From: Candidatus Tectimicrobiota bacterium
Lineage (GTDB): Bacteria; Tectomicrobia; Entotheonellia; Entotheonellales; Entotheonellaceae
Length of the DNA: 64,000 nt
NCBI GenBank assembly: GCA_026005175.1
Contig: BPKO01000001.1
Span: 124,001 to 188,000, forward strand
Reading direction: 5' to 3'
The notes below the pieces were generated by a model. That model saw nothing but the letters and a program-made list of their open reading frames with translations, did no database searches and was not told the DNA's origin. Position 1 is the first letter of the stretch, and every line of letters begins with the position of its first letter. Both the position numbers and the translations under genes were made by a program. Positions 34,097 to 39,798 of the stretch are shown one piece after another.

Positions 34097-34417
34097 ATGG
34101 CACAGCGCATGGTCTACTGTGTAAAGCTGCAAAAAGAGGCGCCGGGCATCGATCCCGACGACCTGCAAGGGCGCGTGGCACTGGAGATGATCGAGTCGGT
34201 CGGCGGCGCCGAGCTGCGGCAGCGCATTTACGACAACGTGTCGTGGGAAGCCTGGCAGCTGTGGCTCGACTACCTGACGATGCTCATGAACGAGTACCGG
34301 CTCAACATGACCGACCCGCAAAGCGACGCCTTTATTCGCCAGCACATGGAAGAGTTCTTCTTCGGTGAAGGCGCGGCGCTGCCTCCGGGCTACGTGCCGC
34401 CCTTGGGCAAGCGGTAG
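34097..34417 (+). CDS. Oxidative damage protection / Fe(II)-trafficking protein (YggX family)
   Basis: MVYCVKLQKEAPGIDPDDLQGRVALEMIESVGGAELRQRIYDNVSWEAWQLWLDYLTMLMNEYRLN. Confidence 0.85.
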   Translation: MAQRMVYCVKLQKEAPGIDPDDLQGRVALEMIESVGGAELRQRIYDNVSWEAWQLWLDYLTMLMNEYRLNMTDPQSDAFIRQHMEEFFFGEGAALPPGYVPPLGKR

Positions 34418-34426
34418 GAGCGGGCC

Positions 34427-35821
34427 ATGCGCGTGCTGCTCCTGTCGACGTACGAGCTGGGGCGCCAGCCGTTTGGCCTGGCCTCGCCGGCCGCCTGGCT
34501 GCGCCAGGCCGGGGCCACGGTCACTTGCCAGGACCTCTCCCGGCAGCGGCTCGATGCGCAGGCGGTGCGCGAGGCCGACCTGGTGGCGTTTTACGTTCCC
34601 ATGCACACCGCCACGCGCATCGCCGTGCACGTGGCGGCACGCGTCAAGGCCCTCAACCCGCGCGCCCACCTCTGCTTTTACGGCCTCTACGCCCCGGTCA
34701 ACGCCGACTTCCTGCGGCGCTTAGGGGCGGACAGCATCGTGGGGGGCGAGTTCGAGGCCGAGCTGGTGCGCCTGGTGCAGCGCCTGCAAGCCGGTGAGTC
34801 CCCCTCGCCAGAGCCGCGGGTGTCCCTGGAGCGGCTGCCGTTTCGCGTGCCGCAGCGCCACGACCTGCCGCCGCTGGCCACTTACGCCCGCCTCGTGGTG
34901 GATGCCCAGACGCGGCGGGTGGTGGGCTACACCGAGGCCAGCCGCGGCTGCAAGCACCACTGCCGCCACTGCCCCATCGTGCCGGTCTATGCGGGGCGCT
35001 TCCGCATCGTGCCGCGCGAGGTGGTACTCGCCGACATTCGCCAGCAAGTGGCCGCAGGGGCCGAGCACATCACCTTTGGCGACCCCGACTTTTTCAACGG
35101 CATCGGCCACGCCCTGCCGCTTGTCGAAGCCCTGCACCGGGAGTTTCCTCACCTCACGTACGATGTCACCATCAAAATCGAGCACTTGCTGCGCTATGCC
35201 CGACACCTGCCGACCTTGCGCCGCACCGGCTGCGTGCTGGTGACGAGCGCTGCCGAGGCGGTACAGGACCGGGTGCTGGCCCTGCTCAACAAGGGACACA
35301 CGCGGCAGGACTTCCTGCGGGCGCTGGCGCTGTGCCGCGAGGTGGGCCTCATCCTCAATCCCACCTTCGTGGCTTTTACCCCTTGGACGTCGCTTGACGA
35401 CTACGTGGAGCTGCTCACCGTGGTGGCAGAGCAGGGCCTGGTGGCGCAGGTGGCGCCCATCCAGCTGGCCATGCGCCTGCTGGTGCCAGCAGGCTCGAAG
35501 CTCCTGGAGCTGCCCGAGATGCAGGCGGTGCTGGCAGGCTTCGACGCGCAGGCGCTGACGTACCGCTGGCGCCACCCCGACGCGCGTGTCGACCGCCTCA
35601 GCGAGGAAGCCCTGCGGCTGGTACAGGACGGCGAGGCGGAAGGGGCCAGCCGCCAGGAAATCTTTGCCCGCCTGTGGGCCGCCGCGCACAAGGTGGCCGA
35701 GCGCCCCGTGCCCCCCTTACCGGCGCCGGTGGTGGCGCCCCCGCGCGGTCCGGTGCCTTATCTCGACGAGCCTTGGTACTGTTGAGCGGAGCCCACACCG
35801 GAGCAGGTGGCTCCGTTTTAA
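34427..35821 (+). CDS. B12-binding-type radical SAM selenoprotein with CUAEP tail (Sec at UGA 35783-35785)
   Basis: GYTEASRGCKHHCRHCPIVPVY radical SAM CxxxCxxC motif. ORF track stops at ...YLDEPWYC-TGA, but frame continues A-E-P-T-P-E-Q-V-A-P-F-TAA, giving ...EPWYCUAEPTPEQVAPF. Confidence 0.85.
35788..35814 (+). promoter_or_regulatory. Candidate bacterial SECIS element (radical SAM gene)
   Basis: GGAGCC-CAC-ACC-[GGAGCA]-GGU-GGCUCC; loop begins with GG, 14 nt after UGA. Confidence 0.55.
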
Positions 35822-35835
35822 GGGGAAAAAGGCCC

Positions 35836-37107
35836 ATGCCCGAGCGCCCGCGCCTGGCGCTGCTCTTTACCACCACCGGGTACGAAGCGCGCGAATTCGT
35901 CGACGCGGCCCGCCGCCTGGGGGTAGAGGTGGTGCTGGGCAGCGACCGCTGCCACGTCCTGGCCGATCCCTGGCAGGATGGGGCCTTGCCTCTGCGTTTC
36001 GAGCGGCCTGAAGAAGCGGCGGCGCGCCTCGTCGCCCACCTGCGCCCGCACCCGCCCCGGGCCATCGTGGCCATTGGCGACACGCCGCTGCTCACCGCCG
36101 GGTTGGCCAGTGCGGCGCTGGGCTTGCGTGCCAATCCGGTGGCGGCGGTGGCGGCCAGCCGCAACAAGTTTCTCATGCGCCAGTGCTTGCAGCGGGCCGG
36201 GCTGCGCGTGCCGCCGTTTCTTTGCCTCCCGCTTGCTACGGACCCCCGCACCGTGCAGCACCGCGTGCCTTATCCTTGCGTGCTCAAGCCGCTGGCGCTC
36301 TCGGCCAGCCAGGGGGTGATGCGTGCCGACACCCCGGCAGCGTTTGTGGCCGCCTTTTGGCGGCTGCGTGCCTTGCTGCAGCGATCCGACCTTCGCCAGC
36401 GGCAGGGCGAGGCTGCAGACGCGGTGCTCGTCGAGGGCTTCATTCCCGGGGTGGAAGTCGCCCTCGAGGGGCTGCTCGACGCCGGCCGCTTGCATCTGCT
36501 GGCCCTCTTTGACAAGCCTGACCCTCTGGACGGGCCGTTTTTTGCCGAGACCCTCTACGTCACCCCTTCCCGCTTGCCGGCGGCGGTGCAGGAAGCGCTG
36601 CGGCGCTGTGCCGAAGCGGCAGCACAAGCCCTGGGGCTGGTGCAGGGCCCGGTGCATGCCGAGCTGCGCTACAACCGCGACGGCCCCTGGCTGCTAGAGC
36701 TGGCGCCACGGGCCATCGGCGGCCTGTGAAGCCGCACCTTGCGCTTTGGGACCGGGATGTCCCTGCCAGAGCTGCTGATCCGTCACGCCTGCGGCTTGCC
36801 GCTGCCGTCGCTGGCGCGCGAGCGGGCGGCGGCAGGGGTGCTGATGCTGCCCGTGCCGGAGACAGGCTTTCTCAAGCGCGTTGAGGGACTGGAAGCGGCA
36901 CGCCGCGTTCCGGGCGTCGAGGAGGTGGTCATCACCGCCAGGCCCGACGAGCTGCTGCAGCCGCTGCCCGAAGGCGGCAGCTATCCGGGGTTTGTCTTTG
37001 CCCGCGGTGCCACGCCGCAGGAAATGGAGTGGGCCCTGCGCACCGCCGCGCGCCACCTGCGCCTGGTGCTGGCGCCGGGGTTAGGGGTGGTGGGAGAGCC
37101 AGCCTGA
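35836..37107 (+). CDS. ATP-grasp domain selenoprotein (Sec at UGA 36727-36729)
   Basis: ORF to ...LLELAPRAIGGL-TGA continues in frame SRTLRFGTGMSLPELLIRHACGLPLPSL...GLGVVGEPA to 37107; the two halves are 12 nt apart in the same frame and form one ATP-grasp protein. Confidence 0.8.
36748..36763 (+). promoter_or_regulatory. Candidate bacterial SECIS element (ATP-grasp gene)
   Basis: GGGAC-[CGGGAU]-GUCCC; loop has G at second position, 23 nt after UGA. Confidence 0.55.
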
Positions 37108-38228: not shown

Positions 38229-39798
38229 ATGCGCAGGGGGAGCAAGTATGGCGTGTGGGTGGTGGGGCTGTGGCTGCTGGCGACCTCGGCCCTGGCGGGC
38301 AGTCCTGCGCCGCAGGGGCAGCTGGTCATCGCCCTGCCGGACTTTGGCAACCAGGTGCCGGTGCCGTGGCAGGAGTTTGCCTTTGGCAAGAGCTACATGC
38401 GCCTGATTTACACGGCGCTGGTAGGGATCACCGACGACGGGCAGCTGTCGCCCGATACCGGTGCCGCCCGACGCTGGGAAATGAGCCCAGACGGCCGCAC
38501 CTGGACCTTCTGGCTGCGCGACAATATTACCTTTCACAACGGCGATCCCCTGACGGCAGAAGACGTCAAGTTCAGCCTCGAAAAGATGCTCAGTCCCAAG
38601 TCGGTGGCCTCCTACGTGGGGCGGCTGCGGCAGCAGATCGTCGCCGTGGAGGTGGCCGGACCCTACCAGGTGGTCATCCGCACCAAGGACCCGGTACTGT
38701 TTCTGCCCTGGGATCTTTCCGACATCCAGGGCACCGAAGGCATGATCCAGCCCAAGCGCTACACCGAAGCAGTGGGAGACGAGGGATTCGCGCAGCAGCC
38801 CGTCGGCAGCGGGCCCTATCGCGTGGTCGAGCAGCGCCACGGCGACTTTCTCCGCCTCGAGGCGGTAGAGCGCCACTGGGCCATCGGCGTGCCGCGCTAC
38901 AAGACCCTTTTGTTCAAGAAAGTGCCGGAAGAAAGCACGCGCATTGCCATGCTCAAGACCGGCGAGGCCGATGTCATCAGCGTGTCGCGCGAGCGGGCGG
39001 CGGAGCTGGCGGCAGCCGGCTTTCGCATTTTTACCAAGCCGCGCTGGTCGATTCTGGGCATGTACTTTCACGAGCAGTGGCGCCCCGAGGTGCCCATTTC
39101 GAAGCTCAAAGTCCGCCAGGCGCTCAACCTGGCCATCAACCGCGAAGAGCTGGCGCAGTACGTCTTTGCAGGCATGGCGGCGCCGGCTGCCGTCTATCCC
39201 ATTCCCAGCCGCGCTCCGGGTGCCGATCCGACGCTTGAGCCCTACCCTTACGACCCCGAGCGGGCGCGGCAGCTGCTGCGCGAGGGCCGGCTACCCCAAC
39301 GGCTTTGAGATCACCGTCTACTCTTATCCGCGGGCGGATGTCCCGGAGATGGCCCGCTTTGTCGAGGCGGTAGCCGGCTACTTTGCCGACATCGGGGTGC
39401 GGGCCAAGATCGTCCCTACCGAGTACGCTTCTTATCGCAAGAAACGCCTGGGCTTTGACTTGCCAGGCGAGATGGGGCCGCTGGCGACACCGACCCGCCC
39501 CCTGGCGGGCTTTGTCTCGCTGGCGCGCTTGCTGTTTCACTCGCAGGGGCGCTTTACCAGCATCCGTGACCCGCAGCTCGACGCCCTCATCGAGGCGATG
39601 GAGAACGCCCTCGACGAAGAGACGGCACGGAAGCACTTTACCGCCATTTACCGCTACCTGTACCACCACTACAACCACCTGACGGCCGTTGAGCTCGACG
39701 TCCCGTACGCCACCAGTGCCCGCATTGCCAAGTGGGACCTGGGCGGCGCGGTGTGGGACCAGAACTTTCTCTACCTGGTGCGCCAGCAGGAGCCGTAG
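38229..39798 (+). CDS. Peptide ABC transporter solute-binding protein, apparent +1 frameshift near 39285
   Basis: WEMSPDGRTWTFWLRDNITFHNGDPLTAEDVKFSLEKM..., completed by ORF 38944..39798 (AGYPNGFEITVYSYPRADVPEMARFVEAVAGYFADIGV). Confidence 0.85.

Follow-up and report, generated by a model that had tools for sequence, protein, structure and literature searches.

A predicted selenocysteine-containing ATP-grasp ligase paired with a CUAEP-tail radical SAM selenoprotein in a Candidatus Tectimicrobiota genome

The gene at positions 35836–37107 (forward strand) of the 64,000-nucleotide stretch of a Candidatus Tectimicrobiota genome analysed here (referred to below as the window; assembly GCA_026005175.1, contig BPKO01000001.1) makes, on sequence grounds, a strong case for a selenocysteine-containing ATP-grasp ligase, in which UGA codon 298 (36727–36729, forward strand) is read as selenocysteine (Sec). 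The predicted product is 423 amino acids long and of the L-amino-acid-ligase type. The initial annotation of this DNA had proposed that an in-frame TGA divides a single ATP-grasp protein, with no frameshift, and this was confirmed: the TGA is the only break in a frame that is otherwise open up to the stop TGA at 37105–37107, and the surrounding residues read LELAPRAIGGL-U-SRTLRFGTGM. Pfam searches identified the ATPgrasp_N, ATP-grasp_4 (PF13535, 105 bits) and LAL_C2 (PF18603, 66 bits) domains, the latter two with scores above gathering, and LAL_C2 lies entirely 3' of the TGA. The downstream half lacks a good start, as had been suspected, its sole opening being a TTG at 36739, and no two-gene split with independent starts was found among the orthologs. 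Standard annotation will truncate the Sec form of the ligase at residue 297. Three genes follow each other on the forward strand, yggX (34097–34417), a radical SAM gene (34427–35821) and the ATP-grasp gene, separated by gaps of 9 and 14 nt; the adjacency of the ATP-grasp gene to the CUAEP radical SAM gene had been correctly described at the outset.

Homologs were sought in one genome per species, across 84,980 species, yielding 512 relatives, 80 of which were kept; the genomes of the window's own family were then added. Codon 298 is TGC in 56, TGT in 27 and TGA in four of the 87 aligned homologs, so that the in-frame UGA is aligned with a conserved Cys and every sequence (83 Cys and four TGA) has one residue or the other at this position. 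No other Cys column is invariant, even C148 reaching only 90% conservation. The GGLCxRALRF motif given in the initial annotation was essentially right, the consensus being IGGLCSRTLRF. TGA forms were found in the window genome (G000) and in three more genomes (G001–G003, locus L009 being the same contig as in G003); these four separately assembled genomes represent three genera of one family, and the window ligase is 66–70% identical to the other three Sec orthologs. In the tree, the four Sec ligases form a single clade with full support, nested within a larger clade that has many Acidobacteriota members with an adjoining radical SAM gene. No independent Sec conversion of the ligase was found in 95 genomes of Rokubacteria (the phylum of L008) or in 396 genomes of Acidobacteriota (the phylum of L007). 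The presence of Sec in the ligase is a single lineage-specific change, the Sec form being limited to four genomes of one family. Two other candidates were rejected: a TGA flagged in G131 lies off the Sec column, which reads Cys in that genome, and the additional TGA picked up in G001 and G002 is their ordinary stop codon. The window genome also encodes a Cys paralog of the ligase (57% identity, with the motif GGLCARTLRF) that falls in a separate clade, and three genomes of the window's family have a Cys paralog located away from the radical SAM gene. The paralog of the window genome (G000:C1:867107–868348; L002, L109) lies directly behind an NfuA-like (IscA plus NifU-C) gene and is remote from the radical SAM gene; similar paralogs are present in G001 and G002.

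A bacterial SECIS element (bSECIS) is a stem-loop located 16–37 nt after the UGA, with a G among the first two bases of the loop. The hairpin GGGAC-CGGGAU-GUCCC (36748–36763, forward strand) has exactly the geometry first claimed for it, with a 5-bp stem beginning 18 nt after the UGA, a loop 23 nt after the UGA and a G at loop position 2. It is identical in all four Sec orthologs and in none of the 83 Cys homologs, only one of which has any Watson-Crick stem of at least 5 bp at an allowed position. Synonymous resampling yields such a stem in 4–6% of cases for G001–G003 and in 30% of cases for the window gene. Codons 303–309 (CGC TTT GGG ACC GGG ATG TCC), which span the hairpin, are identical in all four Sec orthologs and constitute the longest codon-identical run in the ligase gene; the next longest is three codons, and overall codon identity at identical residues is 20%. 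Folding of the isolated SECIS stretch, a check suggested in the initial annotation, gave an unremarkable minimum free energy (z-score of -0.6), and the case for a SECIS therefore rests on position and conservation rather than on folding energy. Comparison of the four Sec orthologs gave dN/dS ratios, wherever dS could be estimated, of 0.10–0.25 3' of the UGA versus 0.11–0.19 5' of it; purifying selection therefore acts on the downstream half of the ligase as it does on the upstream half.

The window genome has the Sec-decoding machinery: selA (638 bits) lies directly upstream of selB (391 bits), with tRNA-Sec (76.5 bits) about 7 kb from selA/selB, and selD (379 bits) is also present. Co-occurrence with this machinery, a check suggested in the initial annotation, was also seen more widely, selB scoring above its cutoff in 39 of 48 ligase-bearing genomes. 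The selD gene of the window genome (L160, G000:C9:120631–121554) itself has an in-frame TGA, and SelD is therefore probably also a selenoprotein.

The radical SAM gene (34427–35821, forward strand) belongs to the NF040546 family of CUAEP/CCAEP-tail radical SAM (seleno)proteins, with a score of 667.7 bits for a curated cutoff of 500 and the C-[UC]-A-E-P tail typical of this NCBIfam model (WYC-U-AEP here). The TGA of this tail (Trp-Tyr-Cys-Sec-Ala-Glu-Pro; 35783–35785, forward strand) is kept in the orthologs, with TGA or a Cys codon in relatives, and is read through to the TAA at 35819–35821. It is followed by its own bSECIS, CGGAGC-AGGUG-GCUCCG (35799–35815, forward strand), with a loop 19 nt after the UGA. 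A stem of at least 5 Watson-Crick pairs was found after the UGA in 38 of 42 distinct TGA forms, with varying, compensating sequences and a loop that is mostly AGGU or AGUU, beginning 19–20 nt 3' of the UGA; such a stem was found in four of 19 Cys-tail forms, at scattered places. This UGA with its covarying stem indicates that both genes of the pair are selenoprotein genes here. The UGA or Cys state of the tail, when compared with selB, gave 22/24 versus 8/13 genomes (p = 0.07), a link that is suggestive only. The radical SAM tails of L012, L018, L019, L023, L058 and L071 have Cys in place of Sec in genomes that possess selB, and Sec/Cys exchange in the CUAEP tail therefore seems to be frequent.

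The proposed pairing of a ligase with a radical SAM enzyme is supported by a near-perfect co-occurrence of the two genes. Among 396 Acidobacteriota genomes, 62 have both genes, three the ligase alone, two the radical SAM gene alone and 329 neither (Fisher's exact p = 4e-66, a value inflated by shared ancestry), which makes the two genes near-obligate partners. The radical SAM gene was present in 20 of 24 ligase-bearing genomes tested and in none of 14 control genomes, and in seven of those 20 it lay beyond the flanking sequence read on either side of the ligase, in most cases with a UGA tail. Since the radical SAM gene is present even when outside these flanks and is lacking from the controls, the link looks functional, and not merely positional. 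The pair is found in Acidobacteriota, Rokubacteria/Methylomirabilota, Chloroflexota, Poribacteria and others. It provides the orphan CUAEP radical SAM family with a partner and a testable pathway.

Around 88 ligase loci, the recurring neighbours are the radical SAM gene (40 loci), YggX (35 loci, in several orientations) and Nfu/NifU-C (22/88 loci, mostly directly upstream of the ligase); many ligase loci have no adjoining radical SAM gene. The YggX/Fe(II)-trafficking protein gene of the window (34097–34417, forward strand; PF04362, 97.5 bits) is the first of the cluster. It precedes the pair in each of the four family genomes, is kept upstream of the radical SAM gene in G001–G003 with 72–78% identity, and is the only neighbour kept with the pair in this family. 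Its product has an insert of about a dozen residues (around DPDDLQGRVALEMIESVGG) relative to YggX proteins from outside the family. The downstream 2-hydroxyacid dehydrogenase and peptide ABC transporter genes were rejected as pathway members, as they do not lie beside these genes in G001–G003. The family 5 solute-binding protein gene of this transporter (38229–39798) is split by an apparent frameshift near 39290; the gene may be broken, or the assembly may be wrong at this point. A formyltransferase-domain gene recurs beyond yggX beside the ligase, mostly in Chloroflexota and Thermomicrobiota (L030, L037, L039, L050, L053, L063, L069, L077, L078 and L083). The recurrence of YggX and Nfu points to a function in iron, iron-sulfur or thiol-redox homeostasis, and the neighbourhood as a whole speaks for an iron-sulfur or redox setting more than for resistance to arsenic.

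Computation shows the ligase to have an intact predicted ligase fold. The AlphaFold2 model is that of an ATP-grasp ligase (pLDDT 89.9), and its nearest PDB structure is 3vot (TM 0.80), the L-amino acid ligase BL00235, which is also the best sequence match (135 bits). Together with the ATP-grasp and LAL_C2 domains, the conserved ATP- and Mg2+-binding residues fit an enzyme of the L-amino-acid-ligase type: K111, K151, E276, E288 and R292 are invariant in 40 sequences, their roles in ATP and Mg2+ binding being assigned by homology. In the predicted structure, Sec298 comes right after an R-x-I-G-G motif, at the start of helix 296–301, and in the alignment it falls two residues after BacD Trp332, a known specificity determinant. 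Given this proximity to Trp332 and to the R-x-I-G-G loop, we infer from the alignment and the model that the selenol lies within the amino-acid pocket or next to it. A redox-regulatory or structural role for Sec298, rather than substrate handling, seems rather unlikely; a redox function is attributed to many bacterial selenoproteins (PMC13188914) and the YggX neighbours point to oxidative stress, but the residue occupies the sole invariant Cys column, with only C148 otherwise reaching 90%, and sits in the substrate loop, two residues beyond the position aligned with Trp332.

The Sec-containing ligase and the CUAEP radical SAM selenoprotein are very probably the two enzymes of one pathway. UGA codon 298 would be decoded as Sec via the hairpin that follows it and the SelA, SelB, tRNA-Sec and SelD of the cell. 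The radical SAM enzyme would use its Cys-Sec tail to hold a soft atom and would transfer an amino-acid fragment from SAM onto it. The ATP-grasp enzyme would then activate a carboxylate with ATP and couple the amino acid so formed to an amine or to another amino acid; Sec298 (Cys elsewhere), in the substrate loop, could bind the substrate's soft atom or serve as a nucleophile. The chemistry of this scheme is modelled on that of ArsL, for which transfer of the 3-amino-3-carboxypropyl group from SAM to arsenic has been proposed (PMC8552651); although the likeliest reading of the pair, it is put forward tentatively, as a possibility that is more doubtful than not. More speculative still is the broader idea of a widespread and previously undescribed two-enzyme pathway, with both enzymes selenoproteins in the lineage of the window, yielding a small molecule that contains arsenic, selenium or a metal as its soft atom via Cys or Sec in both enzymes and serving iron-sulfur homeostasis.

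A metalloid-free alternative, in which the radical SAM enzyme acts second and, instead of providing a building block, modifies a low-molecular-weight thiol or metal-binding dipeptide that the ligase has made for iron-sulfur homeostasis, appears about as unlikely as this broader idea. It would account for the many loci in which Nfu immediately precedes a ligase that has no adjoining radical SAM gene, that of the Cys paralog of the window genome among them, and for the recurrence of YggX in several orientations. However, Nfu and YggX may have no role beyond serving the iron-sulfur cluster in the radical SAM enzyme, and no thiol-biosynthesis gene was found to recur in the ligase neighbourhoods. 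An arsinothricin-like pathway, the product of which would be an arsenic amino acid or its peptide, is less probable again. ArsL (NF040542) is both the nearest other family and the nearest characterised relative of the radical SAM protein, and a vicinal Cys-Sec or Cys-Cys pair close to the C-terminus would be a suitable ligand for As(III), but the score of 292.4 bits is below the ArsL cutoff of 450 bits and no arsenic (ars) genes recur around the 88 ligase loci; for these two reasons, ArsL-like chemistry serves here only as an analogy for the proposed two-enzyme pathway. It is highly improbable that the TGA at codon 298 genuinely terminates translation or is an assembly artefact, the gene being a decaying or truncated copy, despite the intact Cys paralog (57% identity) that could make one copy dispensable and the apparent frameshift about 2.5 kb downstream in the window, because the same codon is TGA in four separately assembled genomes from three genera, dN/dS is about as low downstream as upstream, and the identical hairpin is found in TGA forms only.

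The fold and length of the ligase and its ATP-grasp catalytic residues are shared with BL00235 (3vot), BacD/YwfE (3vmm, 3wo1) and RizA (4wd3), and BL00235 also shares its C-terminal domain; identity to these L-amino acid ligases is about 26%. None of the known L-amino acid ligases aligned has Cys or Sec after R-x-x-G-G, whereas the ligase described here has Sec. The invariant Cys/Sec identifies a functional residue missing from the solved L-amino acid ligases. BL00235, BacD/YwfE and RizA are not known to act alongside a radical SAM partner. In the ArsL system, arsL alone suffices for the product and there is no ATP-grasp ligase (PMC8552651), whereas the radical SAM enzyme of the window, which scores below the cutoff of ArsL despite this being its nearest characterised family, has a ligase partner. 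A 2026 inventory lists 119 prokaryotic selenoprotein families, with neither an ATP-grasp enzyme nor NF040546 in its Table 1 (PMC13188914). No NCBIfam 20.0 model scored above its cutoff for the ligase, and our literature search retrieved no paper describing an ATP-grasp selenoprotein or mentioning CUAEP; other papers may mention the ligase. We call the ligase a new selenoprotein family, from an enzyme class for which no use of Sec is known and with a newly established partner; it adds to the selenoproteome a class of enzyme that is not redox by fold. It resembles known prokaryotic selenoprotein families (PMC13188914) in its UGA-encoded Sec with Cys homologs, its bSECIS and the accompanying Sec machinery. 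The gene immediately upstream is a member of the existing NF040546 family, to which the new element added here is the ligase partner.
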